The translations under genes were made by a program, and so were the position numbers. A stretch of DNA of 64,000 nucleotides from Candidatus Altimarinota bacterium (GTDB lineage Bacteria; Patescibacteriota; Gracilibacteria; BD1-5; UBA2023): assembly GCA_023230505.1 (NCBI GenBank), contig JALNXF010000004.1, forward strand, positions 54,249-118,248, written 5' to 3'. Position 1 is the first letter of the stretch, and each line of letters opens with the position of its first letter. Under the pieces are notes generated by a model, which was not told the origin of the DNA, did not search any database, and saw nothing but the letters and a program-made list of their open reading frames with translations. Positions 1,735 through 55,055 of this stretch are shown piece after piece.

Positions 1735-4611
1735 TTAATATTTTTTTTCTCTATTCTCATTATAAATAACTCTAAATAAGTTATCTTTTAAAGTTTTCTT
1801 TAATTTATCATTATCAACAATTTTTTTATAAAATCACATATTATTATCAAGTATTTCAACCATTACATTATCAAAATAGTTATCAAAAACTGCTAATACA
1901 TTTTCTTTTGAATTATTTTTAATCTTATTTACCAAATCTTCATTTCATCTTAAATTATTAATCATTCTAGAAACAAAAACTTTATCTTCATCAGTAAAAT
2001 CAGTTCAAAAAGTATCATTTAAAGATTTTATAATCACTGATAATTCTGATTCATTTCTTTCAATATATCAACTTCATCAAGAAGACATAGAATCCAATTC
2101 TCAATCTGCTTCTAAAGAAATAGATTTTTCTCATTTATTTACTATTTTATAACTATCAACATCAACATCTTCTAAAACTCAAAATGGTAATGGTTCATTT
2201 ATAGTTGGGAGTTTTTTTGTTAAAAACTTTGAAAATATAAATAATTTTTCTAAAGCTATATCATTAAAAGGAATTAATTGTGATAAAAACGAATAAATAC
2301 TTTGAAATCTTTTTAAAGTCTTTTTAAAATCTACTTGTTCTTCCTTTTCTTTTGATTTAAAAGTAGCAACAACAGAATTTAAAATATTATGAAGTATAGC
2401 TTGGTTAGCTCACGATTTATATTTAGAAAAATATTCTTCAACTTCATTTTGATCAAATATTAAAAAATCAAATAACTTATCATACAACTCATAAAGTTTA
2501 TTATAATCAGTTCACTCAAGTAAATAAGTTTCTTCATAATATGGTTCAAATGCTTTTTTTATTACTTCTGTATCATTAGCAAAATCAAGTACAAGAGTAT
2601 CATTTTTTCAAGCATAAATTCTATTTGCTCTACTTAATGTTTGAACTGCCGTAATTCAATTTAGCATTTTATCTACATACATTGTATGAATTAATGGTTC
2701 ATCAAATCAAGTTTGAAATTTGTTTGCAACTATAAGTATTTTATAATCATCTTTTTCAAAAGTTGTTGGAATATCTTTCACTTCTGATCAATTTAAACTA
2801 TTTTCAGTATATTCAACATCATCATGTTTTACAGTTCATGAAAAAGCTACTAAAGTTTTAATATTTAGTCATAATCCTTTTATATAAGCATCAAATGCCT
2901 TTTTATACAAAACAGCATGCAATCTTGAACGAGTAACAACCATTGCTTTTGCTTTTCCTCAAATTTTAAATCTAGTTGATGAATTAAAATGATCAAGCAT
3001 TATTTGTGTTTTTCTTGCAATTGTATTTGGATGTTTTTCTACAAAATTTCTCAGTAATAATTTTGCTTTTTTTTCATCATATTTTGGATCTTCTTCTACT
3101 TTTTTAAATAATGCAAAATAAGTTTCATAACTTAAATAATTTTTTAGTACATCCATAATAAACCCCTCTTTCATTGCTTGTCTCATACTATAAAGATGAA
3201 ATGGTTTATAATTTCATTCTTCATTTTTTGTACCAAATAATTCAAGTGTTTTATTTTTAGGAGTTGCTGTAAAAGCAAAGAAACTAGCATTTTTTAGATT
3301 TTTTGATTTTGCCATCTCATCATATAACTCTTTATCTTCTTCATTTTCAAATTCTTCTTCAAAAAGTTCAGCTTCTTCTAGTGAATTAGTTGATAATACT
3401 TGTTTCATTTTTTTAGCATTATTTCAAGTTTGACTTGAATGTGCTTCATCAATTATTATAGCATATTTTCTACCATCCATAGCTCATAATTCATCAAGAA
3501 TATATGGAAATTTTTGTATAGTAGTTACAATAATATTTGTTCATGACAATAAAGCCTCTTTTAATTGAGCTGAATTTTTATCTATTTTTTCTACAATTCA
3601 TTTAATTTTTTCAATAGCTTGAACTTGTTCTTGTAATTGTTTATCTATAACTTTTCTATCTGAAACTACTATTACAACATCAAATAATCTATTATCATCA
3701 CTATCAAACTTTCCAAGTAAACTATGAGCCAACCATGCTATAGTTTTTGTTTTACCACTTCAGGCACTATGTTGGATTAAATAACTATTACCAACTTTAA
3801 CATCGTTTAAAACACTATTTACACAATCTAATTGATGAAATCTAGGAAAAATATTTATTCATCCTTCATTATAAATAAATCATGATATAAGTTTTGAAAG
3901 TTTATTTTTTTGTAAAATATCTTTGTATAAATAACTCGTTTTAAAATCTCATTTTATTTCAGGATTTTGTGTTCATCTATTGAATGGTAAAAATCTTGTT
4001 TTTTCTCAAGCAAGTTTTGCTGTCATATAGATTTTCTCATCACTCATAGCAAAATGAACCAAACATCTACTAAAAAATGTTTCATTTGGATTTCTATCGT
4101 ATCTATATTGATTCATTGCTTTTTCAACTCATTGAGAAAAAGTATCTTTTAGTTCGATACTTGTTATAGGTAATCAATTTATAAAAACAACTAAATCGAT
4201 TCTATTTCACATTTCCATTTTTTCATATTCTAGTTCATCTATAACTGAAAAAATATTTGCTTCGAATAATTCTTGTAAATCTGGATTTTTATTGTTATTA
4301 GGTTTAGAATAAAATAATTTAAAATGACAACCACTATCTTTAAAACCATCTTTTAATACTTCAATAGTTCATTTATTTTCTAAAGATTGATTCAATCTAA
4401 AAATAAATTTTTCACTTGCTTTGTCTCAATATAAAGACACAAACCTATCCCAAAGTCTTTTTTGAGTTTTTTGTATAAATTCTAAAACAAGTTCTATATC
4501 AATACAAACATCTTTATTGAAAGATTTTGTTTTTCGTAAAGTATATCATGTATTTTCAAGATGTTCTAGTACTTGTTTTTGAAAATCCTTTTCATTAGTA
4601 TTAGTTGTCAT
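1735..4611 (-). CDS. hsdR: Type I restriction enzyme R subunit (HsdR)
   Basis: Motor and nuclease subunit that translocates DNA and cuts it when HsdM/HsdS find unmodified sites; 958 residues. The N-terminal PD-(D/E)xK nuclease is visible around residues 138-155 (RIDLVVFINGLPITSIELKD). The SF2 helicase motor follows: Walker A HSAGSGKTKTIAW near 282, DEAH box IIIDEAHSSQ near 387, motif III FFAFTATP, and later QTGFDEPLIHTMYVDK with QTLSRANR (motifs V-VI). It is read only with UGA as glycine, for example in the Walker A and helicase motifs. Last gene of the minus-strand restriction locus, 11 bases after higA-immA. A further 38 in-frame codons follow its UAA. Confidence 0.95.
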
Positions 4612-4622
4612 TTTAATTAAAA

Positions 4623-5753
4623 TTAAGAATTAATTATATTTAAAGGTTTTCTATAACTTGATAAATCTCAATAGACATGATCATGTCACATTTTATCAAA
4701 ATAGTGAGCTATTCTTCAAGCAAGTAAACTAGTTCAAATTCATTGTTTTTCAGCAAAGTTTAGAAAATTACTTTGAGAAATAGGTAAATTTTTAACAAAT
4801 TCACTAAAATCATTTGAATCAATAAAATAACTACTTGCCCAATTATTTGCTTCAGCTTCTATATCTTGTTCTTCATCAAACACATTTATAAATACATCAT
4901 CTTTTTTTGATAAATGTAATTGAACATGAGCTAATTCATGAAATAAAGCAAACCAAAATGAATCATTTCTTTTTCCTCTATCACTTACTTGAACAAAAGG
5001 AATTCATTTATATTTTCTAGTAATTCAATATACTGGCACTTTTGTAAAAGATGGGACAAATGAAAAGTTTATTCATGCACTAGCAAGTAATTCTTTAATT
5101 TTCTCCACATCTACATTCTCATCATTTGTCATGGATTTTAATTCTTTTAATACTTCATCTAGTTTCTTTTTTGAATATTCTTCAATTTCTTTATCTTTTA
5201 TTTTTAATTCTCAAGCTCTTAACCAACAAACTAGATTATATTTATTTAATTTTAATGAATCTGATTTTTTAAAAGCAAAAGTATTTATTTTAAAAATATC
5301 TAATATATTTTTTAAAGATGATACTCAAAAAAAACTATAAAGATTATTTAGGATTCTTTCTTTATTTTCATTTCATACAAAAGTCAATTTTTCTACAAAA
5401 CCTTCATCAGCTAAGTTTTTATAACCATCTTTTATTTCTGCTAATATATCCTTATCTAATTCTATTTTTTTTGTCATTAACTTCTTTTCTTCAATCCTAG
5501 CTTTATCTTCATCATATGATTTTTGTAAATTATTCCAAAATTCAGCTGACATACCAAAAACTTTTTCTAATATTAATGCTGTTTCAGGTGTTATACTTGC
5601 TTTCCCCTGGATAATGTTACTAATATGTTTTTCACTTATATCTGTTCTTAAACATAAGTCTTTTTGACTCATTTCCTCTGACTCTAAAATATCTTTTAAA
5701 GTTTCTCATGGATGAATTAGTATTTCAGGAAAAAAACTTCTTTTATTTACCAT
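4623..5753 (-). CDS. higA: HigA-type antitoxin fused to ImmA/IrrE metallopeptidase
   Basis: 376 residues. The N-terminal third is a HigA-family Xre helix-turn-helix (HPGETLKDILESEEMSQ, ISEKHISNIIQGKASITPET). The C-terminal half is an ImmA/IrrE peptidase with zinc motif HELAH (in FWFALFHELAHVQLH) and the downstream EAEANNWAS segment supplying the third ligand. Such fusions pair with HigB-type toxins; the toxin gene lies 43 bases upstream. The HTH part would bind toxin and the shared operator, while the peptidase may cleave a regulator in response to a signal (known for ImmA, inferred here). It ends 11 bases before hsdR. Confidence 0.88.
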
Positions 5754-5796
5754 AACTTTTTTTAAATAATTATTATATTTAATATCTTTTATTATT

Positions 5797-6147
5797 TTAG
5801 TGGGTTTTATCAGTAACTTCAAGTATTTTTATCTTTGTTACTAATTTAAATTTTTCATCATTCATGAAATCGTCACATACAATTTCTGTAGGATCAGTTT
5901 CAAAAATAATTCTAAAAACATTTTTTCTCCCATCTATATCTATAGATAATTCATATTTTCTATCTCAAGTTAAGGGGTGCAAATTGTATAAAGTTCTTTG
6001 TTTCTTTATATCAAGTAGATTAGGAGCTCTATCTAATTCAGTTAATCTTTGAATTAATTTTTTATTCATGTGAACATTTTTCTTTTTGAAAAAAGTTCAT
6101 GTTTCACACTTTCTTCTCAGTGTATCTGTTTTAAAATCCAGCTCCAT
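5797..6147 (-). CDS. higB: HigB-like (RelE superfamily) toxin
   Basis: 116 residues. The C-terminal half has the compact RelE/HigB barrel pattern: LNLHPL-like segment YNLHPLTGDRKYELSID, then NVFRIIFE. HigB toxins are ribosome-dependent mRNA endonucleases. Toxin-before-antitoxin order with HigA-ImmA downstream is the normal HigBA layout. The pair is inserted between hsdS and hsdR with two operator-like palindromes upstream (6181-6249), so it probably has its own promoter. The basic residues needed for catalysis cannot be assigned with certainty by eye. Confidence 0.75.
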
Positions 6148-6180
6148 TTACATATTGTTAAAGATTATAAAATAAAGATA

Positions 6181-6249
6181 TTAACCTAACTGGTCAATAT
6201 TTTATATATTTTTTTAAAAAAAGCAAATTTATTTACCAAGTTGGTTAAT
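6181..6249 (-). promoter_or_regulatory. Paired palindromic operators upstream of higBA
   Basis: Two related 18-base sites lie upstream of higB: TTAACCTAACTGGTCAAT at 6181-6198 and TTTACCAAGTTGGTTAAT at 6232-6249, matching at 13 of 18 positions with the palindromic core ACC-N5-GGT. Their centres are 51 bases apart, about five helical turns. A TATAAT sits at 6164-6169, with the first site over its -35 region. This fits HigA-type autorepression by DNA looping or cooperative binding. The second site overlaps the stop codon of the upstream membrane-protein gene. Confidence 0.55.
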
Positions 6250-6940
6250 TTTTAGGAAAATCATATCTTTGTATATTGTTCATTTTATCAATTCTTAAAA
6301 AATTATTTTCATCTTTAAACTTCCATAATTCACTATTTACTGTAGTATATTGTATAGCTCAATTAGAATCATAATATATTTTTCAAAATTTTACATTTAT
6401 AGATATAATTAAATCATTTCAATAAGGGGTTCATATATCAATAGGAAATAATAATACTCTATTGTTTTTATTAAAAGCAGCACATTCATAAGATGGTCTT
6501 TCAAGTCTTTTATATTTACTATACATTGCAATATCAACATCATGTTTTTTAAACCAATCACAATTTACTCAAAATGAATTAGTATAATCTTTTGCAAACA
6601 TATCAACTTCTTTTTCAATCTCTGTTTTTGTAGGAATTTCAACCTCTGAATATTTTATAGAATACTCTCTATACTTCCATTTTCACCAGTCAAATATTGA
6701 ATTTAATGGTAAAAATATTGAAAACCAAATAATAACAGAAAATGCAACAATTGAAGATAATTTATATTTCCAATTTTTATCTTTAGATATTAAGTCATAA
6801 AAAAACATCTTTATAAAATCCCAAAAAGATAAAATCCATTTTTTTGAAATATTTATTAAATCTATAAATATTTCAAAAAACCAATTAACTCAATTATTAG
6901 TATGTTTTTTAATTTTTGAGTATTTTTCTTTTTCATCCAT
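6245..6940 (-). CDS. Hypothetical membrane protein within the type I restriction locus
   Basis: 231 residues, not recognised. The first ~60 residues are charged and aromatic, followed by one clear membrane segment (KLSSIVAFSVIIWFSIFLP, about residues 61-80). The rest is a soluble region with aromatic and charged residues, probably outside the membrane. It starts 17 bases after hsdS and ends just before the higBA operator, so it is likely transcribed with hsdMS. A single-pass protein in a restriction locus could be cargo or an accessory defence part; no function is proposed. Confidence 0.75.
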
Positions 6941-6957
6941 AAATCTTAAATTAAAAA

Positions 6958-8262
6958 CTAAACTTCAACTTTCCCAGTAACCACATTATAAATAATTGAT
7001 TTTTTATATTCTTCATAAAGATCTATTCTTCTTTCAACTTTTTTAATATGACTATCAATTTTTACAGTTTCTTTATCTAAAAAATCAACTATTTCTTGTT
7101 GTTCTTCTAACGAAGAAAGTCATATTTTTAAATCTTTAACTAACTCTGTATTTAAGTTTGGTTGTCATGAACCTTGAACAATATCTCTTAATTCTTTTGT
7201 TAATTGAGAAAAATAATAAAACAGAAAATTTATATCTATATTTTTTAAATCTAAAAATGCTACAGATCCATCATTTATACATCATTTTATTTTAGTAATT
7301 TTAGGGACTCATAATGTTGCTCAACTATTTGAAAGTAATAATGTATTTACCTTAATAATACGACTATTCAAACTTCACTCTTTTGTTAAAAAAGATTCAG
7401 TATTATATAAATATTTTTCATTAATTCATTTTGTAACTTCTGCAACAGTAATCCAATTTATATAATTTCAATCAAAATACAATGGGCTTCATGCTGGACG
7501 TGGGGATGCTCACCTAACAATATTTGCAATACGTCTAATAGACATAATCTTCCAACTCTCAGGAATCTCTCAAATCCATTCAACTCAACTTTCTTTCATT
7601 TTTATATCCCTTTTAATTCATTTTGTAACTGCTTGGTTTATTAAACTCACTCTTTTTTCCTTTAAAAGTTCAATTAAATTTCTATCTTTTTTTATAAGTT
7701 TTTCTATTTGTGAAGTTTTTGAATCTAGGAAAGATGAGATTTTTTGTTGATTTTCTAATAATGGAATTGAACAAAAAATATCTCTTACATTTTCTTGATT
7801 TATTCATCATTGAGCTCATCAAGTTTGATTTATTAAAATTTGTTCTTTTTGTGTTAATAAATAATAAAATAAATATATTGAATCTACTTTATTAGTTTCA
7901 ATTCATATTACTGATTGGTTTGCAGTAGCTTTAAATGGTAAATATGATATATTTCAACAAGTTGCTCAAGTAAGAGCTATTAAAACTGAATTAGGTTTTA
8001 TCCATTTTGTAGAACTATTATTTAATGCCTCAAAAGAGATAAATTTAAAAACTTTATCTTCTTCTATTATATTATCATGGACCATTCATGAAGGTAACCA
8101 TGGAATATTTCCTTCCCAAAAACTTTCATTTGCTGTAGAAGGAGTTCATCATGCAACAGTCTTAGCAAAATGTTTAATTTTCATAATTTGCCAATCTTCA
8201 GGAATTTCTCAAATCCAATCAATTCATGAATTTTTGTATTTTGAATATTTTTTTAATTTCAT
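6958..8262 (-). CDS. hsdS: Type I restriction-modification specificity subunit (HsdS)
   Basis: DNA-recognition subunit, 434 residues with two tandem target recognition domains. Each half opens with the same phrase: SGIDWIGEIPEDWQIMKIKH near residue 12 and SGVEWIGEIPESWKIMSIRR near 229. Each ends in a helical spacer with ENQQKISSFLDSKTSQIEKL and EEQQEIVDFLDKETVKIDSH. This is the canonical TRD1-helix-TRD2-helix layout. ATG at 8262 is used; an in-frame TTG two codons upstream is possible. It sits between the OGG-fold gene and the membrane-protein gene. Confidence 0.93.
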
Positions 8263-8304
8263 AGCCAATGATTTAATTATAATTCTTCTTTTAATAATGT
8301 ATCT

Positions 8305-8967
8305 TTATACTAAACTTCTTCAAAATATAAATAAAAAAAGTTCTACTTTTCAAGTTTCAATTTTTTCTTTATTTAATAATTCTAAATATTTAAAATAATG
8401 TTCCGAATTTCAATATTTAAATACAATATTTTCACTAGATTGATAAAAAATATTAGAATTTAAAACCTCTATTATTTGTAAATCTAAAATTGCAGGTTTT
8501 AAGTTATCTATCTTAATATCTAAAAAATAAATAATTTTAGTTATACTAGATAAACCTAATCAATCTAATTCATTAACTATTTTTTTAAATTGTTCCGATC
8601 CTATTACTTCTTGTTTTAAATTAGTTTTTAAGCATCTTGCCATTGTTTCTATATTCTCATCTTTAAAAATCTTTCTTGAATTTTTATAAGTTCAAATTCT
8701 TCAGCTAGAATACCCCCAAGCTAAGACATAAAGAATAAATTTTTCATAATCTACTAATTTTTCTGACTCTATAGCTTTTTTACCTAAAGAAAATAACATT
8801 TTTCTATTAATTGAAATATCTTCATTCGATTCAAAAAGAATAGAATATATTTTTGTGAATTCTGAAGTAAAATTTTTTTTCCAGTTTTTATATTTTACTA
8901 AAAAACCATGATTATCTAAAGGTAATTCTAGAATTAATGTTTCATACTTATCAATATTTAATTTCAT
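8305..8967 (-). CDS. OGG-fold DNA glycosylase-like protein in restriction locus
   Basis: 220 residues. The centre contains a helix-hairpin-helix-like segment ELDGLGLSSITKIIYFLDI followed by PAILDLQIIEVL. This matches the pattern of OGG-fold proteins, where the HhH loop contacts the backbone and a conserved Asp follows. The usual catalytic Lys of the hairpin is not obvious, so it may bind or sense DNA rather than excise bases. It lies 14 bases after hsdM and 42 before hsdS, inside the restriction operon. Family assignment is by motif only and moderately sure. Confidence 0.55.
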
Positions 8968-8981
8968 ACTTCAATTATTAA

Positions 8982-10988
8982 TTATAATTCTTCTTTTACA
9001 AGTTCATCAATCTCAGCAGTAATCTTAAAAATATCAGCTTCAATATCTTCTAAACTTCTTGGTGGTTCGTATTTATAAAAATATTTAGTAAAATTAATTT
9101 CATAACCAACTTTATCTTTACTTCTATCCATCCAAGCATCAGGATAATATGGTAAAACTTCTTTTTTGAAATATTCTTCTATATCTTGATCTAATCTAAT
9201 CTTTTCACTATCTCTTAATGCAGTATTTGCTTGTTTATTTCATTTTTTATCTAGTATAAAAGGAGCTGTTTCATCATGTTCTGATAAAGCCATGATAATT
9301 TGATTGATAAAAACTGGCTTTAAATTATTTTTTTCTAAAGCATTATTTACCTTTTTTGAGAAATCTTCATAATCTTGTGATAAAATTTCTCAGATAATTT
9401 TTAGAGAAGTTATAATATCATTCTGTAATTGTATTCCTGCTTCTATTTCTTGTTCTTTTTTTGTAATATCCTTTTGAGTTGATTCAGATAATTTAGAAAA
9501 AGTTGAAATAGAATAAAGATTTTCAATTCTTTCTTCATTTATTTGAAAATTAAGTTGTAAAGGTCTTTCTACAACTACTTTTGTATATCAAAATTCTTCA
9601 TTTTTAAATATTTTACTAAATTCAGTTTCCTCAAAATTATGATATAAATCAATAAGTTTTTGTTGGTGTTCTACTGGATGTAATTCTCTTCTTTTTTCTC
9701 AAAGAGATTTTCTCATTTTTTGCCAAAAATTAGTTCAGTCTATAAGTTGTATTTTTCAAATTCTTTGCTTTTTCTTTTGATTTGATAAAATCCAAATGTA
9801 AGTACCGATTCAAGTATTATAAAATAATTGTCATGGAAGAGCTATAATTGCTTCTAAATAGTCACTTTCTATTAAGAATTTTCTTATATCACTTTCTCAA
9901 CTTCCAGCATCTCAAGTAAATAATGGAGAACCATTTGTAATAACTGATATTCTTGATTTTTCACCATTTGTTTTCATCTTTGAAATCATATGTTGTAAAA
10001 ACAAAAGCTGTCAGTCATTTATACGAGGAAGTCATGCTCCAAATCTTCAATTTTCTCATAATTCAGCCTCTTTTTTTACAAAATCTTCATCTGCTTCCCA
10101 TTTAGTTCCATAAGGAGGATTTGATAAAATATAATCAAATTTTTCGTTCGGAAATAAATCGTTTCATAGAGTTGAAAAAGGTCATCTAATATTTCAAGAT
10201 TCTTCTCACTTTAATAGCATATCCGATTTAGAAACTGCAAATGTTTTTGGATTGATTTCTTGTCAGTACAAAACTATATCTGCTTTTGGATTAATTTTTT
10301 CTTTTATATAAGTTTTTGCATTTGTAAGCATTCAACCCGTTCAGCAAGCAGGATCATAAATTCTTTTTATAGTATGATCTTTTTTGATATCATCTTTATC
10401 TTCGATAAACATCAAATGAGTCATAAGATCAATTACATCTCTTGGAGTAAAATGTTCTCCTGCTTCCTCATTTGAACTTTCAGCAAATTTCCTTACTAAT
10501 TCTTCAAATATTAATCACATTTCATGATTATCTACTTTTGATGGATGAAGATCAATATCAGTTGAATTAAATTTTTTAACTAGTTTAAAAAGAATATTTG
10601 ATTTTGCTAGTTTTTCGATTTGTTTTTTTATTTCAAAATTTTCAAATATATCGTAAACATTTTTACTAAAACTATCTATATAATGAAGTAAGTTTTGTTC
10701 TATATGTTCTGGATCTTGCAAAAGTGATTCAAAATCATATTTTGAATAGTTATAAAAACTATTTTTTGAAGTAGTTCTAAGTAAATGATCAAAGTTTTCG
10801 ATTTTGCTTTCTGCTGCAAAATTATATTTTTCAACTACCTGTTTTTTTGTATCAGATAAAACACTATCAAATCTTTTTAAAACTACAAATGGTAATATAA
10901 CATCTTGGTATTCACTTCTTTTATATGGTCATCTTAGTAAATCAGCTAAATCCCATATAAAACTTACTTTTTCATTAAAATTGGACAT
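8982..10988 (-). CDS. hsdM: Type I N6-adenine DNA methyltransferase M subunit (HsdM)
   Basis: 668 residues, first gene of the restriction locus. It begins with the HsdM N-terminal helical domain ([20 protein letters not shown]), then the SAM-binding motif I DPACGTGGML near residue 212 and catalytic motif IV NPPYG near 291. Two of the three glycines in DPACGTGG are UGA, a direct check on code 25. The start is the only ATG near the hydrophilic N terminus; 134 bases of non-coding DNA lie upstream. The C-terminal 150 residues are coiled helices that normally contact HsdS. Confidence 0.95.
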
Positions 10989-11502: not shown

Positions 11503-13542
11503 TTATTTGTTATGAAATTCAAAAATCATATCGTCGTTGTATCAGGTATTTTTCTTATATTCATTAATTCTATCTACAAAAATTTGAGCCGTTTTATCAT
11601 CAAATTCAGTCTTATTTTTCTTGAAATAAACTAGTGCTTCATCAAATTTTTTCTGATAATATAAGCTTAGTGCTTTTTCGTGATTTGAGAGAAAAACATT
11701 GTCTATTTCTTTATTTTTTTCTCATAATAATTCATAAATTCTCACGCCTTCCGTTTTTCATTTAACCCTGATATTATCCAATTCTCTGGTGATAAAATCA
11801 TCTTTTACAATATCGTAGGTATTCCCGGAAATAATTAATCTAGTGTTGTAATATTTATTAATTCATTCCAGTCTAGAAGCTAAATTTACATTGTCTCAAA
11901 TGATTGTGTAATCTGAAAAATTCTCGTCTCAAATGCTTCAAATAATTACTTTTCCGGTATTAATTCAAATTCTTATATTGATTTTTTGGTGGATTGATTC
12001 GTTTATTTTTTCTAATGATTTTTTTAGGGCTAATCCTGTTTTACAGGCTAGATAGGCGTGATTAGAAATCTCTAACGGTTCTCACCAGAAAACCATTATA
12101 CTGTCTCAAATATACTTATTAATTACTCAATTATTTTTAAGAATTACATCGTTAAAAGAGCTAAATATTGTATTTATTATTTTCAATAACTCTGTGTTTT
12201 TTATTTTTTCTGAAATATCTGTAAATCACTCAATATCCAAAAATAAAATAGAAACAATCTTTTCTTTTGAAATATTACTTTCGTTATTCAGTAGATTTTC
12301 TACAAGTTTTTTGTCCATATAACGAGTAAATTCTTTTTTAATTCTTCGTCTTTCTTTGTAGGTGATAAATACTTTGTACGAAAATACGATAATATAGGCT
12401 ATAATGACAGTAAAAATTAGATTCTTAAAATCAAAGTAAATGTATTTTTTAAATAATTCTAATACGATAAAGTAACTAGAAAGTACATAAACTACTGATT
12501 GAACAATAATTAAATATAAATTTCTAGTTAAAAATAATAGCACAAATATGGCTGTATAAACAAATATTAAAACCAATAACTCTTTATAAATTGGAACCAT
12601 TTTTATATTTTTTCCCTCAATTATTGTCTGGATTTCATTTGCGATAATCTCGACTCCGGGACTGAGTGCATCCTTTGAAACTGGCGTTTTGTAGGTATCT
12701 CAAAGGCTTTCGCTATAATCTCCTATTAGCACTATCTTATCTTTTAAATCAATACTATTTCAGCTATAATCTTTAAATACTCAATTATACGCATTGTGAA
12801 ACTGAATTGCACTGTATTTGTCGTATGGTTTTGAGAAATAATTTATATAAAAGTTATTATCTAATTCTACATTTTTTTTCAAATAAATCTCTCCGGCGAC
12901 TTGAGAAATTGATTTTGAATTATTGATGTTTTGTGTTCTGTATCTAATTACTCAATCATTTGAAAAAGGAATATTCACATATCATAATTTTGCGTTTTTG
13001 GCTATGTAATTGATAGGATAAATGTAAGGAATATTTAGAATTTTTCAGTCTTTGTCTACTTTGTATGAATAGGGAATAATTACATTTCCAGCCTTTTTGA
13101 TTAAATCTCAGAAATCTGTGTCTATTTTTGAGAGATAATTTTTGTTATAAATTGCATCTTGATATTTTTCATATAAATTATCTACGCTTTTAACCGATGA
13201 ATTTGAGAGTTTCCCATATAAATCCCAGTCAAAATTTTCTGGAATTGATTTATTTGAGAAAAAATAATCGAATACAATTACTTTTGGATTTTGTGTTATT
13301 ATTTCGCTTAGTAGTCATTCATACCTGCTCCTTGTCCAATTTCATCTTTCTCAAAAATATTTTATAGTTTCATTATCAACTCAAATAATTACTATGTCTT
13401 TATTTACCTTTTGAGAGCTTAAATTTTGTGTTAAATAGCTATCATAAAAGTAATTTCCGAGATTTTCAAATAAATTAAAATAAGTGATTACAAAAAAAGA
13501 TAATAATCATAATAGATATAATCAACTTAAATTTCTTTGCAT
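11503..13542 (-). CDS. CHASE2-domain class III adenylate/guanylate cyclase
   Basis: 679 residues. After an N-terminal membrane anchor, an extracytoplasmic CHASE2 sensor spans about residues 30-310 (DIVIIGVDNETIKYFG, PKVIVFDYFF, DKIVLIGDYSESLGDTYKTP, SPGVEIIANEIQTII). Three membrane helices follow (about 316-405), then a class III cyclase. The cyclase shows the metal-binding SILFLDIEGFTD, the KYIGDSIMVFWG signature and the IIGDNVNLASRLEW segment. The Lys of KYIGDS favours ATP as substrate. It would turn an external signal into cyclic nucleotide. A 46-codon frame lies upstream in the same frame, separated by UAA; the start at 13542 is the first ATG after it. Confidence 0.9.
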
Positions 13543-39563: not shown

Positions 39564-40706
39564 ATGGTAAATTACGAAAAAAATATAACAAAATTAATAA
39601 TTGATTGAGAGAATGCAACAAGTGAGATTATTAATTGTATAAAAGAAGCAAAAAAGACAATTAGAATAAGAATGTTTATGTGGAGGGATGATAATTCTTG
39701 AAGAAAAATTCTTGATATTCTTGAAGAAAAATTGAAATCTAATCCAGAAATTAAGGTATTTATCGAAAAGGATTCTTTTTGAAGCCTTGTTTATAATTTC
39801 CAAAAATGGATATCTTTTTGAAAACTCGGTTGAGATATTTTTTCAAGTGAAAAAGGTCAGAATTTTATCAAAAATAATAAAAATTTAGTATTTTCTTTTG
39901 TGGGGTCAAGGTCTATTTTATTTTTCAAATATTTAAAGGAAAATGATCATTCAAAAATATTTTTATTTGATGAAAATACTGTAAATAGTATTGTAATAAT
40001 TTGATGAATGAATATTGCAGATGAATATTTGACTGCTCAAAATTCTGAATCTTCAAATGTTTGAGGTTGGCATGATTATATGGTAAAACTAGAATGAAAA
40101 ATTGCTAATAAATTTAGTTCTCACATCTCAAAACATTCAAAAAAATGACTAAGAAAAAAAATATTATCTTGAATAGAAATTCTATCGAGCATTAGAAATA
40201 AAAGAACTCTAAGATCTGAAATTTTGATACAATTATATAAGGCAAAAAAATCAATAATAATTGAACATTGATATATAACAGATAATTTAACAATAAGAAA
40301 GCTAAGAAAAATTAGTCAGAAGTGAATAAATATAAAAATAATTCTTCCAAATGTCTCTGATGGTGTTTATCATGCGAATATGCACAGTATTTATAAGATT
40401 TTGAAGCCAACTCTTCTTACTCACAAAATAACTCCAAATATTGAAGTTTATCTTTATAAATGAATGATTCATGCGAAAGTTATGGTAATTGATGATGAGG
40501 TTTCAATAATTGGTTCAGCCAATTTAACTAATTGAAGTTTTGATATCCTAAAAGAAACTAACGCGATTTTTAGACAAAAAGATTGAGTGACAAAAGAACT
40601 TCTGACTCAACTAAATCTTGACCTAAAAAATTGTGAGAAAATAACGCTTGAAAATATTCCGAAATATAATAAATTTTTAGCTAAAATTCAGAAGTTTTTT
40701 ATCTAA
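39564..40706 (+). CDS. Phospholipase D-family protein (cardiolipin synthase-like)
   Basis: 380 residues with two HKD-type motifs. The first is degenerate or variant, DHSKIFLFDENTVNSIVIIGG (near 132). The second is canonical: IHAKVMVIDDEVSIIGSAN then LTNGSFDILKETNA (near 300). Cardiolipin synthases of this type join two phosphatidylglycerols or use phosphatidylethanolamine. No membrane helices are evident at the N terminus, so it resembles ClsB or a PLD-like hydrolase more than ClsA. The stop overlaps the stop of the giant gene on the other strand. Confidence 0.82.
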
Positions 40707-43700
40707 ATTCTTTGCATAGTTGTAAGTAGATTTCTTTGGATTAGTTCAAAACTCTTATCGTGTTCTAGATTTTTTTCATGGCTTCAGAGCTTATCTTTGT
40801 TTTCTAATAAATGAACAATCTCGTGAGTTGTTATTTCTATGATTTTTTCCTGAGTTTCTGGATCTCAGAAATTTTTGATCCAATTTCCTATATGGTCAAT
40901 ATTCCAATACATATAAATATTTCAACCAATTTTTTTATACTTTGCCGCACTATTTTCTCATCAATCTCTTTCATAATAAGAATTTATAAATTTTCATCAA
41001 TACAAATTACCTGTAAGTTCCGAAAAATTATTTTCCATAAAATTATTAAAATTCTTAATCTGCTCTACACTTACTCATAATTTTTCTGATATTTTTTCAG
41101 GTTTAATATTATAATTTCTTTCTACATTTTCCATTCATCTATTTATGCTATCGCTTGTGAAAAAACTTTGATCTTGCATTTCATTAAATATCGAAGAATT
41201 GCTTTGTATTCTATTTTTTGCAAGGATTTTTTGTTTCATTTCACGGAGATTTGTAATTTTTCATTCATATTCAAAATTCGCTTGGATGAGAAATTGTGCC
41301 ATTCGCTCACTATCATTTTTAAGTATCTCTATTTCGTCATCATTTAGAGCTTGTCAGGAATTATATTTGTCTGCAATCCTATTAATTTGTCTAGAATAAT
41401 TAAGGTGTTTATCTTCAAGACTCAAATAATCCTCTGGAAGCATAGGGATTTTGACTCAAGTGTTTCTGTCAACAAAAGATTTTAACAACATTCCCACAAA
41501 ACCCTTAAATAAATAAGGTTTTAAAATTGGGAGATTTTTCTCTCTCTGGGCTAGGGAATTGCGAGTTTTTGTGAGTTCCATTCATGCCGGCACTTCAATA
41601 GAAATATTTCTAGATTTTATAAATTTACTCATCCAATCCGGCAAATCATCTAAATAATCATCTGGCAAATCTCTTATATACAAATTATTTTTGGTTTTTC
41701 TCTCTATTTTATCAGATGTCTCAAATATTTTAATTTCTCAATATCCAGGAACTGCGACAGTCTCAAGAAGTTCCTTAGTATTTACAATACTTTCTCATTT
41801 ATAAAGAATTTCCACGTCATCCACATTTCACACATATTTCTGGATATTGTGCACTCCAATTAGTGCCCTCAAATTCCCTCAAATTCAAGAAGCTTTATCA
41901 ACTCTCTCAACGAGAGTTCATTTAAAATCTTCATTAATTACCTCATAGCTTATCTCAAAATCATGAATAAGTCATCACTCGTTAAATATTGGCTTAAATA
42001 CGAGAACTGTAGTCTTTCAATCTCAAACTCCAGTCTTCACTCTGATTTCTTTTGATTCAATAGCTGTAGAATAAAATCCCTGCCCAAACATTCCTTCTGA
42101 ATTCGCTCCGGTTTTAGATGATTCTCCAGGCACAAGCAAATAATTAAAGACTTGCTTTAAATTCATTCAAATAGGATCTCTTACACTTGATACCCAATTT
42201 CCGTCTTCTTCATAGAAATTAATCTCAATTTTTCAGGAATTTCCACTTCCCAATATCACATCACGTGAGTTTTGAACTAGCTCTCTTACCCAAATCATCG
42301 CAGATTCATCTTGTCCGTCAATAGAAGATCTAATTTCATTTTGAAATAATTCACAATTATAATTTTTACTTAAAATATTTTGGGTAAAATTCTCCAAATG
42401 TTGCTCATCCTCAATATCCATAAGCTCCTTATTATGAAGCCTATAACCAGCAATTAATTCCGATAATTTGAATTTCTTATCTCACTCTATTTTGATCACT
42501 GAAATTTCTGATTTCAAAAACTCTCATCCCTTATCCAGAAATTCCCCAAAAGCCACCAAGTCCTGCGGATACTCCCTCAATTTCGCCCTTAACTCGTCTA
42601 TTGTTTTATCAATTTGCGCTATAATTGAAACTTCTTCCAGAGTTGATTTATTGGATAGATTTTTTTCGAGAAGGTAAATTACGACTTGCTCAAAAAATTG
42701 ATATTTATCAGGAATATAATTATGATTAGGATATATTTGTCAAAAAATATAATTACGATATGTATCATAAATACGTTTAGAATTAATTTGTTCTTCTTGA
42801 ATTAATGGTTCAAACTCATCTATAAACTTTCTTATACCTTTTATTATATTTATATCTGTAATAGGATTTTTTCTTAAATCATAAGAACTATTTACTAACA
42901 AAATTAATGCAATATTTCATAAAAATGGATATTTAGAACTCAATGGGCTTATTTTAAAATAATTTAAAATATCTTTACCCCAACATTCTCATCAAAATTC
43001 TTTCATATCTTTCATAAATTCCGCATATTTCGGGTCAGAAAGACTTTCTGCTTTTGGTTTATTGAATAAGTTTTTCTCGAGAAGATAGATTACGACTTGC
43101 TCAAGTAATTGATTTCAATTCACTCTATATGAAGGATATTTTTCATTAAAATGCCGATGAAGCATAGAATGATTATCTCATTTCAATGAAAACAGCTTTT
43201 CATCAGTAAAATTTCTAATTATTTTTATAATATTTTTGTCTGTAATTGAATCCATGCCTAATAATGAAAGATAATCCATAATCCAATTAATCATACCTTT
43301 TTCTAAAAAAGGATATTTATGAGATAGATTTATTTCAAATACACTCCAAAGATTATGAATTCAGTCAAAGTTTTTTGTTGCACGAACTGCTTTCATATCC
43401 TTCATAAATTCCGCATATTTAGGGTCAGAAAGACTTTCTGCTTGGAAATCCTCAGAAGCTTTTTTCTCTTGTTGTAATTTCAGACATCTTTTTTTGAGTT
43501 CTGGGGTTGGGGTTATGAATTTTAGAAAATCTGCAAGTTTATCAATGTAATAGCCATTAAGGCTTATTTGATAATTCTTTTTTAATTCACTCTGTATATT
43601 CCGCCAAGAGGAATTAAGATCAATTTTTTTTATTTCTCAAGAAAAAATAATTATCATTAATTTTTTATTTAATAAAAACTCATAATAAAATTCAGAGAGA

Positions 43701-46700
43701 CTCCTATCTGATGGTGCTATTCAATATATATTTTTTAGGCTTTCTATTGTTTCATAATATATTTCTTCTCTATCATGGTTATTTAAACATTTTTTTAAAT
43801 CTTTATAAAAATCCTCATACAATGGCTCAAAAATAGTCTCATTTTCTCAGACTTTTATTTTGTTTTCTTCCTCCACCTCTTTCTTCACAAATCAATTTTT
43901 CTTGAGTTGGTAGATAATATTTTGAATATTGAATAATTCGTATAATCAATGGATTTTCCGTCATTCTATATTATATTTATTGCAAAAATCTATATATTCT
44001 TTATTTTTATCATCAGATTTGAAATATTCTTCAAGACACTCATATAAGTTTTTACCATTTGCCAATAAGAGTGTTCCTGCTTTTCCATTTAATCTCTCAA
44101 GACAATATTTTGCTTTATCATATTCTACCCAATCAAATATTCCTAAATTTATTTTTCAATCAAATTTATATTTTTTTCTGATTTCGTTCGTTTCATTACG
44201 TCAAGCCATTCAATGAGTAACATTGTAGAGATTCTTTACATCCTCATCTTCCATAAAAAACGCGAATTTTGGGTCCATAATATCTTCGATTCCAGTATAT
44301 TCTGTGTTATTAATTTCTTTTGTTTTCTCTACCTCTACTTCTTTCTTCACAAATCAATTTTTCTTGAGTTGGTAGATTATGTGTTGTGTATGAAAATGCC
44401 ACATAAATAGATTTGTATATTTATTTACTAAATTTTCTAATACAACATCATTTCCTTTGATTCTTTTAATAAATAAATCAAATCTTCAATTACCTAAATT
44501 AAAAGTTCTTTTCATCATCTGAAATAAACGTTCTTTCGTCTCTATAGATAAATCTTCATCTTCTATTTCAAATTTTTCTGTTAATAAATATCTTAAATCC
44601 GTATTTTTATTTAATTGAAATTTATCTAAAATCCTTTCCTCTGTAATACCCCAATTATCCTGATCATTCACATCTCAAAGCAAAATTCTTCTAATATCTT
44701 CATCTTCCATAAAAAATGCGAATTTTGGGTCCATAATATCTTCAATCTCAGTATATTCTGTGTCATCAATTTCGATTTTTGTTGTGTTTTGGTTGGGGAA
44801 TTCTCAGGTTTCTTTGATTTGTTCAAGATCACTGATTATTTTTTGGATTTCAAAAATCATTTTGTTTCTGTATCATTTTCCATTTTCAGAGCTTAATCTT
44901 CTTGCAACTTGACTCATAAATTCTGGTTCAGCTTCAAAAAGCTCGAATATTTTATCTATAAGCTCTATATATTTATCAAGCTCTATTTTATTTAAGATAG
45001 CATCTTTGATTTCTTGATTAATATTTAAATCTCTTGGTAGATTATTATCATTTAATCCTTCTGAATATATAGTTAATAAGGAAATATAATACAAAATATT
45101 TCATTGAATTTCGGGTGTTTTTTGTCTTAGCCTAGCTATAAAATTATCTGCTATTTTATAATCTATATTTTTTCAAAAAAAAGCATAATTCATAAAATCT
45201 TTAGGATTTTTAATTCCTAGTACAAGTTCATCTTTATCTAAAAGCATGCTTACAGAACGCTTTATTACGCCATATTTAAGCGTAGCTATTTCACAAAATA
45301 TTTTAAGTCATTTTTCAAATTCATCAAAAAATTCATCCAATACTTCTTTTAATACTCATCTTTTTTCTTCAAGCATTTCCCTATATTCTTCAGAATTTTT
45401 ATAAAGAGATAGTTTTGTATTTTCTTGATTAAATTGAGTTTGAGAAAATTCCTCAGATTTTGATTTTTTTGTTGGCGAGCTGAGTGTTAGATTATCCTTG
45501 TCTATTCTTCCATAAAACACAATATCTGATTGGATTTCGTATCAGATATTTAGGTTTATGCTGGTGTTTAGAATTTGAATTGGGGAAATGTCTGAGTCAG
45601 TTTTTGAATTTAAATATTTAGAATTTACAAGAATTCAGGTCTTGTGGATGAGATAATCGTGAGTCGCATCCTGAGAAAATTCCATCGCATAAAATGGCTT
45701 TGTCTCGCCGATAATAGAGTCGATTTTCTTCACTCCGGGTAGGGAAGTAATGTCAAAATTTATAAAATCTGGACTTACAAATATTACTTTTTCATTTGCT
45801 CAAATAATTTTTTGGAGCTCTGCATCTGCTGGCAGCACGATTTTTTCTAATTCTTTTAGTTCTTCTAGAAATGGCTTAAATGCCTCTTTTCATATATAAT
45901 CAAGAGTGTATTTTTTCTCGGTTTCATTTGTTTTTCTTTCTTTTAATTTTGAGATTATTTTTCATACAATTTCACTTAATTCCACTTTTTCCTCTAGAGT
46001 TTCACATTTATCAAATATTTTTGAAATTGCTTTCTCAATTGTAAGAACTACTCATCTGGTCGGCAATACCTGATTTTTTGCTTCTGGCACCCACTCAAAA
46101 AACGGAGTTTCAAGCGAAAAGATTGAGATATTACTACTTGTCTCGCTCTCAAATTCCTCATTTACAACTCCCGCAACCTGGAGTCTTATTGTAGTTTTTT
46201 GCTTTTTATCTGGCTTAGTATTTCTTTTATAGAAAAATCTTGTATGCTTGTCCGCATATTTTTTCGTTTCTTCGATGTCCATCTTGGTTCTCAGTTTTGA
46301 GCTGGAAGTCGGGATAAGAAGTTTCTCACAAATAGTTTTACTATCCATTCCCACTCAGAAATCTTCCGCGATAAATCAATTCTCATTTAGAGTAATATTT
46401 ACAACTGGAAGTAAGCTTGTATCGAGTTTTTGTCAGTTAATATATACAAATTCTTCTAAATCATTTAAACGTTTTCAATTTAAATACAAGTTAATATATG
46501 GATTAGTCCCAAATCTTGAACAAATAAAATCATTTAAATATGTGAGGGTTTTATCGTCTAATTTTGCCGCAAGGCTCACTATAGTTCAGTTTTCTTGTTT
46601 TTTGCTTGTTAGACTTCAGACTTTTACTTCATTTTTCTCTTCTACAAGCGATATCTCAAATGCCTTTTCTCACTGTTTTTTCGTATTTATCGATAATTTC

Positions 46701-47191
46701 GCATTCTCAAATTCTTGCAAGAATCTCAGAGATTGGAAAAATCCTTCTCAAAATCTTCCCACTTGCACCTCAGGATTTGAGGCATCACACGCATTTGCGA
46801 TGATTTCCACAAGTCATTGAGCTAAGTGTTCTCATTGATTTTTTATAAGTTTCTCTTTTTTGACTATTTTTAAATTATCTGATTTTCTCGTGTCTTGAGG
46901 AATTAACTTTAGAAGTCAATCGTAATCTAGTGTATTTCATGTTGTGACACTATAAGTTATGAGCTTAATAAAGGCATCTAGTGGTATTTGGGATGGAAGT
47001 TCAAATTTTTCTCTTACAAAAGTTATGAAGTCTAAAATTTCAAAATTTTCTCAATTAATTTCCTTATATTCCTTAATTAGATTTTTGATTTTTTTCCTGT
47101 TTTTGTCGATAAAAGACCTGATATTTTCAGGTGATGAATTTTTACCACTTTTGACTAAATGGTCAGATATTATACTTCTTGTATGTTTCAT
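40703..47191 (-). CDS. Giant protein: two Hsp90-like (GHKL) ATPase modules, DPK repeats and C-terminal HExxH
   Basis: 2162 residues in one frame, read with UGA as Gly. An N-terminal GHKL-like module has an N box LVEIIANACDAS (E129, N133, D136), then GRFGEGFF (145-152) and only later DFGVGM (277-282) with LLIPTSSSK. A central region holds four copies of DPK[FY]AxFMxD starting at 821, 973, 1256 and 1386, each in a longer helical repeat. A second GHKL module follows: VRELVQNSRDV (E1637, N1641, D1644), RDPIGM (1671-1676), LLVPGESSK and GMFGQGFYS (1700-1708). The C terminus carries ITTHEIVHLLE (H2123, H2127) with a possible third ligand in LEHDKSF (H2144), like SprT/zincin peptidases. No membrane segment is seen. 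It lies 12 bases after the WYF-repeat gene. The architecture recalls sacsin-type or defence GHKL proteins, but I know no match. Confidence 0.85.
42657..44762 (-). repeat. Near-identical internal DNA repeats in the giant gene
   Basis: Two pairs of almost identical segments encode the DPK repeats. Pair 1: 43003-43100 and 43393-43460 (both read ESLSDPKYAEFMKDM), preceded by matching QVVIYLLEKN segments near 42660 and 43070. Pair 2: 44238-44310 and 44697-44765 (both read IEDIMDPKFAFFMEDED), with the paired IYQLKKNGFVKKEVE segments at 43880-43925 and 44340-44385. Nucleotide identity is high enough to imply recent tandem duplication or gene conversion. Confidence 0.8.
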
Positions 47192-47203: not shown

Positions 47204-48547
47204 TTATTTTAAATTTTTAATTCTATCTTCCACAAAGCAATCAATCCTTCATAAAATTTTCTCATTTGTAGGATAGATTTCTTTAATCTCATTTCTATCA
47301 TCTTCTGGAAGTCATTCAATAAATTCTAAAAACACATTTTTAGAAATATCCGGTAAACGCATTAAATAGTCAAGTTCTAAACTGAGAGAATAATCTCATT
47401 TATTAAGTGATGTAATTTTTCTTTTAATAAATCTCTGAAATTCATCTCTGAAATTCTCGTCAATTACTTCTTTGTTTGTATTAAGACTTGTTTTTTTCTC
47501 TCATTTTTTTCTTTCGCGACGATTGTTATCGTTTTTTGCATTTTTTTCTTTCTGCATTTGTTCTATTTCTTGCCTTGCTGTTGCCACTGGTATATTTAAT
47601 AGTCTAAACATTTCTTTTAATTGAGTTTTATTGACAACATCTCATTTATCAGCTCTTCATATTCATTTTTCTCTCATAAATTCGGCTTTTATTAGACTAC
47701 CTAGATATTTATTTCAAATTTTTGGCCAGTTTTGTTCTTGATTTCAAATACATTTATTAAAATACCAAATTCATTCTATTTCCTGAAGTCATATTTTAAA
47801 TAATTCTTCTTTATGAGACATTAATAAATTTTTATATCTTTCTAATTCTTGCTCTTCTGTAGCCGTATTTATTCATAATCCCTCAAGCATTATCTTTAGT
47901 CATTTATCATCTTGTACAGTTCAAACCTTATTTCATGCTCACCATTTTTTATTTAAAGTCGCATTAGGAAAACTACTTAAGTGCTTTTTTCCAATTTTTG
48001 GCCAGTTTTTCCATTGAATACATTCAAAAAAATACCAAATATTATTAATTTCTATAAGCCCTATTTCTTCTAATTCATTCCTGTGTGATAATAGGATATT
48101 TTTATATCTTTCTAATTCTTGCTCTTCAGTCGCTACTCTTATTCATAGGGATTTAAACATTTTTTTTAAATCCATTTTATTTTGAATGGATCATATATTA
48201 ACAATTCCTATACCCCTTTTCTTATTCCATCAAGAGCTAGGAAAACTACTCAAATATTTATTTCAAATTTTTCAAATTTTTTGCCATTTTCTCCAACCAA
48301 CACATTCATCAAAATACCAAATTCCATCTATTTCTATAAGTCAGATTTTATATAATTCTTTTTTGTAAGACAATAAAATATTTCTATATTTTTCAGCTTC
48401 TTTTCTTAATTCTGGGGTCTCTTCAATTTCCTGTACTTTCGCCTTAACATGAGCTACTTTATCAGAAATAGTTTTATTTCAATTAGAAATTTTTAGTGCA
48501 AATTGTCTTAAATTTTGCACATCATTATTTTGTTTTAATTTAACCAT
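47204..48547 (-). CDS. Three-repeat WYF-motif protein, operon partner of the giant GHKL protein
   Basis: 447 residues, not recognised. After ~50 residues, three repeats of about 90 residues follow. Each contains ERYKNxLxSHxxEL, then IGLxEIxxIWYF and a Trp-rich WPKIGxKxL. The three cores read IDGIWYFDECVGWRKWQKIG, INNIWYFFECIQWKNWPKIG and IEGIWYFNKCIGNQEQNWPK. The C-terminal 120 residues are charged and helical (RRERKKGEKK, then FIEGLPEDDRNEIKEIYP). It stops 12 bases before the giant gene, so the pair is surely one transcript. The repeats may be small DNA- or peptide-binding modules; that is a guess. A terminator at 48614-48657 isolates the pair from the SpoT-type gene upstream. Confidence 0.8.
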
Positions 48548-48613
48548 TTTTACAAAAATTATAAATATCTCGTATATTTTATCATATTTTTGTAAATTAC
48601 GCAAAAAATAGAC

Positions 48614-48657
48614 ACAAAAAAATCTCAATAAACTTGAATTTATTGAGATTTTTTTAA
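48614..48657 (-). terminator. Terminator between the SpoT-type gene and the WYF/GHKL operon
   Basis: AATCTCAATAAA-CTTGAA-TTTATTGAGATT at 48621-48650, with T runs on both sides so it can work in either direction. It follows the UAG at 48660 by 9 bases. Confidence 0.85.
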
Positions 48658-53928: not shown

Positions 53929-54663
53929 TTAAATATTAACTATATTTTTACATTTTGGATAATTTTCACAACCAAAAAATATATTTCATTTATTAGTTCA
54001 AAATTTTGCTTTCCTTTCAATTAATTTTCATCAGCACTTATCGCATATTTGATTATTTTCAATTAGCTTACTTTCTTTTGACTCATTCCCACTTGTATAT
54101 TCTCTAACATATTTTTCTAATAAAAATTCATCCCAAATTTCAATTCAATTTCTTTCAGCAAAATTTTTTGCATCTGAAGTTAAATTTGAGGTAGTTATAA
54201 ATATTCATTTTGCATTATTATCGAAATCATTCATAGCACCATAAAATTCTCTTATATTTGACTCAGAAACTTTATAATTTGTCCATTTTTTACATTGAAT
54301 TAGATATTTTCTTCAATTTAAGCTTGCATACAAATCCACTCATCAATCTTTTATTCAAGGTCAAATTTTCGTTTTAAATCATTTTTCTTGTAATACAAAC
54401 TCAATAAATTTCTCAAATTCTCTCCAATGTAATTTGTGCATATCTTCTATTTTGTCTATTGATAGCCATCTGTTCCTCTTTTTATTAAAAATATATTGTA
54501 TAATTATTACAATAATACCTAATACTACTACTCATAGTGTTATCAATAAAACTGGATGATTATTATAAAAACCTAATATTTTTTTATATAAATTGAATAT
54601 AATTCAAATTATTAAAAACATTATAAATAATGCAAATTCATTTTCTTGTTTTCTTTTAGGCAT
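53929..54663 (-). CDS. Membrane-anchored Mrr-like restriction endonuclease with C-terminal zinc finger
   Basis: 244 residues. Two N-terminal membrane helices (LFIMFLIIGIIFNLY, LLITLGVVVLGIIVIIIQYI) lead into an Mrr_cat-type PD-(D/E)xK domain. The domain shows HKLHWREFEKFIEFVLQEKG, KDGGVDLYASLNGRKYLIQC with catalytic D and QxK, and VSESNIREFYGAM with GIFITTSNLT. A topoisomerase-type C4 zinc finger follows (CDKCGGKLIERK ... CENYPKC). This layout occurs in modified-DNA restriction and DNA-uptake-associated nucleases. A role against incoming DNA at the membrane is inference. Confidence 0.85.
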
Positions 54664-55055
54664 ATAACTAATTTTTAAAATAAATTTCACCAATTATATC
54701 CAAATTCAAGAATATACAAATCTTAATTTCACTATAAAACTAAAAATAGTTATCTTATTAAAGATAACTATTTATTTTTTTCAAGTTCACACCCACTTAA
54801 TATGGACTCTCCTAATAGACTGCAATATATTTTTACCTCCCCTTGATTTGCTCTATTTAAAGCGGAAGTTAGAAATCTATTTTTCGCGAAAAACGTTCTT
54901 TTTTACGATTTTTCAATGGTTTTTAAGAGTGTTTTTGTGAGGAAAAATGAAGTTTTTACCCGGTTCTTTTAAGGGCTAATTTTAATATTTTACAATATTT
55001 TGCATGTTATATAAATATATGATATACTCGATTCAATATTAATTATTGACATATT
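54664..55055. other. 391-base gap with perfect hairpin and decayed reading frames
   Basis: No intact gene. A perfect 13-bp-arm hairpin, AAATAGTTATCTT-ATTA-AAGATAACTATTT, lies at 54744-54773. On the minus strand a roughly 45-codon open stretch without an ATG reads SALNRANQGEVKIYC then SLLGESILSGCELE and ends at a UAG (54768-54770) inside that hairpin. A second overlapping frame (EPGKNFIFPHKNTLKNHGKI) lies just upstream, shifted in frame. The base composition is slightly higher in G+C than the surroundings. It looks like the 3' end of a decayed gene with its terminator left in place. A promoter-like GATATACT is near 55021 for the plus-strand gene. Confidence 0.45.

Follow-up and report, generated by a model that had tools for sequence, protein, structure and literature searches.

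Excerpts from two papers describe sacsin as a giant single chain with several repeats of an Hsp90-like N-terminal and middle unit, termed SIRPT or SRR (PMC9880540; PMC3710099). The gene considered here lies in a 64,000-nucleotide stretch of DNA from a Candidatus Altimarinota bacterium (assembly GCA_023230505.1, contig JALNXF010000004.1, positions 54,249 to 118,248 of the forward strand; hereafter the window) and encodes a giant protein of 2162 residues. Sequence and model comparisons show that this protein has two Hsp90-type ATPase units in which the signature residues are kept, each followed by a domain like the Hsp90 middle domain, and that in the first unit (module 1) the segment carrying the G1 box and the ATP lid has been relocated, joining the lid to the middle domain. 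Like sacsin, it has more than one Hsp90-like N-terminal and middle unit in a single chain (two by fold search), and three of the four members scanned (P0001, P0003, and P0005) gave weak NCBIfam matches to the sacsin N-terminal model. Unlike sacsin, it reaches at best 26.2 bits against NF047352, where the cut-off is 50, has no HEPN or DnaJ match (Pfam, E up to 0.1), ends in an HExxH tail, and carries a permuted module 1. It differs from Hsp90, HtpG, and TRAP1 in having two modules per chain, one of them permuted, as well as a long variable insert and the HExxH tail; neither the HSP90 family model PF00183 nor any other family matched it in the same Pfam scan. The tail recalls the SprT-like and WLM metallopeptidases, with weak model matches and, in some members, an HExxH followed by a His and by H-x3-F, but it is fused to ATPase modules and all the matches fall below curated cut-offs. 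We take the tail to resemble Spartan and Wss1 as well. A preliminary description of the gene knew of no described family with the same domain order, and we found none in family-model scans or in open-licence PubMed Central, where descriptions of Hsp90-like modules fused to an HExxH tail, or of a permuted GHKL domain, were likewise not found. As judged from sequence, the architecture is real and conserved across homologues.

The permuted first ATPase module is, at the level of sequence, the strongest new point of our analysis. The canonical order of motifs is N-box, G1, lid, and G2, whereas in module 1 the N-box is followed by G2 (GRFGEGF, residues 145–151), then by G1 (DFGVGM, residues 277–282, with D277-x-G-x-G281-M282), and then by the lid (LLIPTSSSK, residues 291–299). 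The gap between D136 of the N-box and GRFGEGF is only eight residues long, with G1 and the lid about 130 residues downstream, so that these two elements cannot sit between the N-box and G2; the transposed lid instead continues into the middle (S5-like) domain. The N-box, G1, and G2, together with a matching fold in the fold search, place module 1 in the GHKL/Bergerat superfamily, and E129, N133, and D277 are invariant in all eight rows of alignment A3.

The permutation was tested by re-ordering the profile columns of module 1 in silico and aligning both orders to canonical references in hhalign. Under -glob, re-ordering raised the score against the proteins' own module 2 from 16.9 (E 0.003) in the natural order to 52.6 (E 9e-10), that against the canonical protein P0022 from 64.9 to 122.7, and that against canonical P0011 from 50.4 to 84.5. 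Without -glob, scanning the breakpoints on a 9 x 12 grid gave the maximum at 140/258 with either reference, namely 128.8 for P0022 (73.4 in the natural order) and 65.1 for module 2 (26.0), and the canonical G460 protein as reference gave an increase from 81.8 to 143.2. A second, distant group of members (P0010 and P0012–P0016; 8 x 10 grid) had its maximum at equivalent breakpoints, with 113.6 against G460 (natural order 69.4) and 106.8 against P0022 (67.6). As a negative control, the same move was made on the canonical module 2, and the scores against all three references fell (48.4 to 29.4, 72.1 to 39.2, and 43.5 to 22.8).

Module 2 keeps the canonical order, with the N-box RELVQNSRD (residues 1636–1644), G1 DPIGM (1672–1676), lid LLVPGESSK (1685–1693), and G2 GMFGQGF (1700–1706), and it too belongs to the GHKL/Bergerat superfamily by these motifs and by its fold in the fold search. 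E1637, N1641, and D1672 are invariant in all eight rows of A3. Fold and an arginine at the R1877 place, the putative Hsp90 catalytic arginine (17 of the 18 rows shown), identify an Hsp90-type middle domain after it. As regards the C-terminal dimerisation domain of the Hsp90 family, most VIA alignments extending beyond the middle domain in the fold comparison for module 2 had a root-mean-square deviation above 11 A. Two GHKL-type modules some 1500 residues apart had been proposed in the preliminary description. The spacing is accurate, the N-box glutamates lying 1508 residues apart, and the modules themselves are borne out by the fold search, by sub-threshold NCBIfam matches of module 2, and by HATPase_c_3 matches above cut-off in two relatives, P0017 and P0022; what had been overlooked is the permutation of module 1.

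The reading frame is uninterrupted, as first described, when translated with genetic code table 25, under which it contains 71 in-frame TGA codons, and the closest relative, P0003, has the same start position. Homology independently supports the recoding of TGA to glycine in this gene: across 22 TGA columns of the C-terminal alignment, the mean fraction of Gly among 13 relatives outside the code-25 group is 0.49 and that of Trp 0.00, while Gly reaches 0.27 at 18 GGN columns and 0.038 at 491 other columns. The columns scored were those filled in at least 6 of these 13 relatives, which are assumed to use the standard code (DNA was checked for G460 only). Since the same motifs recur in homologues on other contigs, they are not due to chance. 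In the window protein, a hydropathy count found neither a signal-like N-terminus nor a 19-residue hydrophobic stretch above threshold, so that it would be expected in the ATP-bearing cytosol.

Between the two modules lies a region of repeats, in which all four copies of the DPK[FY]AxFMxD motif noted earlier are present. The units align weakly except at the DPK motif and at the unit ends, and self-BLAST of the window protein revealed no significant internal repeat. This region diverges faster than its flanks. Identity to P0003, with G/W pairs scored as identical, is 411/460 in the N part, 416/752 (55%) in the middle, and 540/633 in the C part (85–89% at the two ends), and P0003 is 135 residues shorter, with three DPK-type motifs against four in the window protein. 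The middle of P0010 has a propeller-type Pfam match below cut-off (E 0.0088), and P0014 bears a precomputed PF13360 label, also propeller-type, whose position in the protein is not stated. The middle region thus seems to be interchangeable between members, which would fit a role in recognition. The earlier suggestion of sensor repeats gains indirect support from the rapid change of this region and from the fact that P0003 has lost one repeat unit.

The C-terminal HEIVH motif and the LEHDKSF stretch (residues 2142–2148) are both where they had been reported. HExxH is kept in 23 of the 24 members retrieved, including all 23 that we retained, and H2138, H2144, S2147, and F2148 are also invariant in the eight rows of A3. 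The spacing after HExxH varies among members outside A3, so that any assignment of a third ligand is provisional. The zincin-like character claimed for the tail has the HExxH motif in its favour, but the peptidase kinship is weak, the SprT-like and WLM matches being sub-threshold and no stronger than those to unrelated families. The features of the gene are listed in Table 1.

Table 1. Positions of the giant gene and its features in the window
Feature	Position	Strand	Residues and remarks
Whole gene	40703..47191	minus	2162 residues, table 25 (TGA=Gly), ATG start
Module 1 N-box helix	46775..46837	minus	119-139 (E129, N133, D136); invariants and helix
Module 1 G2 box	46727..46762	minus	144-155, VGRFGEGFFQSL
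Module 1 transposed segment	46277..46417	minus	259-305; strand, G1, helix, ATP lid; breakpoint-grid optimum
Module 1 middle (S5-like) domain plus the segment after it	45494..46264	minus	310-566
Variable repeat region	42656..44770	minus	808-1512; about five units (124-156 residues each), delimited by eye
DPKFAFFMED	44702..44731	minus	821-830
DPKFAFFMED	44246..44275	minus	973-982
DPKYAEFMKD	43397..43426	minus	1256-1265
DPKYAEFMKD	43007..43036	minus	1386-1395
Module 2 Hsp90-type ATPase domain	41792..42340	minus	1618-1800; canonical motif order
Module 2 middle (S5-like) domain	41477..41791	minus	1801-1905, including R1877
IPMLPEDY	41426..41449	minus	1915-1922; in 8/8 rows of A3, one position being L or M
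C-terminal zincin-like domain	40706..41044	minus	2050-2162
HEIVH motif	40811..40825	minus	2123-2127

Protein and genome searches yielded 24 distinct proteins (the window protein, P0003–P0022, G104, G114, and G460, P0008 being the protein of G001), of which P0021 was dropped as no N-box or HExxH was found in it. Among the remaining 23, the motif order is permuted in 20, counting P0019 by position as its G1 motif is degenerate, and canonical in three (P0011, P0022, and G460). In an unrooted tree built from the region from module 2 to the tail, which is free of the permuted part, one branch splits the canonical three from the rest (80/78; 76% of 200 bootstrap trees), and label shuffles scored as low as the observed split in only 1 and 2 of 500. 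A single origin of the permutation is favoured, though not proven, given the moderate support, long branches in four rows, and deviant composition in eight. The family is thinly spread: carriers number 3 of 353 genomes in the class of G001; 2 of 379 genomes sampled from the phylum of G001, which is itself one of the two; 1 of 285 sampled from the class of G460, the carrier being G460; 1 of 21 relatives of G104; and 1 of 20 of G460. The last two counts include the query genome, and genome completeness is unstated throughout. The G460 member (L025, 3678–9146, minus strand) has no in-frame TGA, and in its module 2, as translated, a long insertion separates the N-box from G1. P0011 (4129 residues) carries PEP-utilising enzyme domains at residues 3584–3769, and in P0010, P0011, P0012, and P0019 module 1 is preceded by a similar IQDAH/IQDLH-type stretch, reminiscent of ChaN/TraB-like proteins.

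The preliminary description saw no known partner genes, and our comparison agrees. The gene upstream (47204–48628, minus) encodes a 474-residue protein with roughly three copies of a W-containing unit; relatives of it occur in 8 of the 353 class genomes, none of them among the three carriers of the giant gene, and G118, G331, and G078 have several adjacent matches to it. Downstream, a PLD-family gene (39564–40706, plus) converges on the giant gene with a 4-base overlap, and the top NCBIfam scores of its product are to cardiolipin synthase models, with weak matches to DrmC and NgoFVII. As read from translations, the neighbours of the giant gene are antiporter-like and DHH-like genes in G001, a gene for a large secreted-looking protein in G114, peroxiredoxin-like and Clp-like genes in G104, and MltG-like and nucleotidyltransferase-like genes in G460; no common neighbour was seen in these four genomes by eye, without family models. 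Further off in the window lie an Mrr-type restriction nuclease that also carries a zinc ribbon of topoisomerase type (53929–54693, minus), a type I restriction-modification locus (1735–10988, minus; HSDR_N/SNF2 subunit, S subunit, and HsdM) with an HTH and Peptidase_M78 protein (4623–5822) between its genes, and a CHASE2 sensor fused to an adenylate/guanylate cyclase domain (11503–13542, minus), here in a code-25 bacterium.

We propose that the giant protein is a self-contained, single-chain, ATP-driven clamp whose protease-like tail cuts the client, a reading that we consider evenly poised between right and wrong. The repeats would bind a client; ATP binding would close both lids and make the two ATPase modules meet, either inside a single chain or across two chains in the manner of the two Hsp90 protomers, so as to wrap the client; and hydrolysis would remodel the client, which the C-terminal zincin would then cut. 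The permuted lid would couple the nucleotide state of module 1 directly to its middle domain, and no conserved partner gene would be needed. In bacteria that are probably host-dependent, the most likely role would be to clear particular damaged or foreign proteins. The ATPase and peptidase activities, the client, and the role are all inferred. Several observations weigh against this proposal. At the place of the putative catalytic arginine, module 1 has a Lys in three of eight rows, one of them that of the window protein itself; in module 2, several relatives, P0010 among them, have degenerate motifs. For the tail, the SprT-like matches are below cut-off (E 0.056 in the window protein, 0.088 in G104, and 0.14 in P0003; 13.7 bits against 25.6), as is that to WLM (E 0.061 in P0007; 13.8 bits against 26), while unrelated families score as well (CRAL_TRIO 0.062, TetR_C_8 0.064, and Cep57 0.032); three of six tail segments scanned matched no family, the tail profile has no relevant match in the PDB, and motif inspection found neither HExxH nor N-box in P0021. 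The rarity of the gene (3 of 353 class genomes) fits an accessory function. Finally, by hydropathy count 8 of the 23 members (P0010, P0011, P0013–P0016, P0019, and P0020) have an N-terminus resembling an export signal, one of them without an AxA-type site, and this clashes with cytosolic quality control.

If the HExxH tail were structural or inactive, the protein would be a chaperone only, an Hsp90- or sacsin-like holdase or remodeller; this is consistent with the lack of a peptidase model above threshold for the tail, and a separate HSP90 was not found in three of the four carriers searched, whose completeness is unstated. However, the remaining carrier (G104) does have a separate HSP90, and since H, E, and H are kept in 23 of 24 members across deep divergence an inactive site is unlikely. 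We regard this alternative as improbable. The signal-like N-termini could alternatively mark a machine that is delivered, acting inside an attacked or host bacterium, with signal-less forms taking another route: an exported ATPase needs an ATP-bearing destination, and such N-termini occur although Hsp90-type sites need ATP. Part of one source reports predation for a member of the Absconditabacteria with giant proteins and infers a membrane location for the giant proteins of Vampirococcus lugosii, a relative (PMC8080830), and part of another proposes predation for giant open reading frames of Omnitrophota (PMC10066038). Yet no signal-like N-terminus is present in the window protein or in the other members whose genes contain in-frame TGA (P0008 excepted, whose recorded start looks wrong), no secretion gene is linked to the giant gene, and the members that may be exported come without a taxon. 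We consider delivery quite improbable.

The preliminary description took the build to suit a conflict or quality-control machine. A conflict or defence sensor, in which the repeats recognise an invader's protein, the ATPase modules provide the switching, and the effector is the zincin, arresting the cell or destroying that protein, is a guess and to our minds unlikely. The gene is rare and patchily distributed, and its fast-evolving, copy-variable middle is flanked by conserved ends. The upstream repeat protein has a weak match to the CfrBI restriction nuclease (E 0.0016, below cut-off), the Mrr-type nuclease gene is 6.7 kb away, and the convergent PLD gene has its weak DrmC matches. On the other hand, the giant protein matched none of the PADLOC families at E up to 1, a tblastn search with its C-terminal part found nothing in 72,556 records of plasmids and 50,697 of phages, and the type I restriction locus described above is more than 29 kb away. 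The neighbours in the four other genomes decide nothing here, as they were read by eye without family models.

On a bolder reading, the family could represent a new class of energy-dependent protease that does without AAA+ rings. A single chain would form a double clamp of Hsp90 type, its naturally permuted ATPase domain linking the ATP lid to the lever arm; interchangeable repeats would recognise the client, and once clamped the client would be cut by the zincin. Such proteases would be thinly spread over several uncultured lineages and exported in some. This wider proposal is tentative, and we think it rather doubtful as a whole. The coexistence of permuted and canonical sister forms in one family amounts to a natural experiment on how the ATP lid drives the remainder of the chaperone, and reveals which connections are dispensable. 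With Hsp90-type ATPases and a peptidase motif in one chain, the protein, if active, would be a protease that draws its power from GHKL instead of AAA+ chemistry, and an unfamiliar kind of energy-driven machine for remodelling or cutting proteins.

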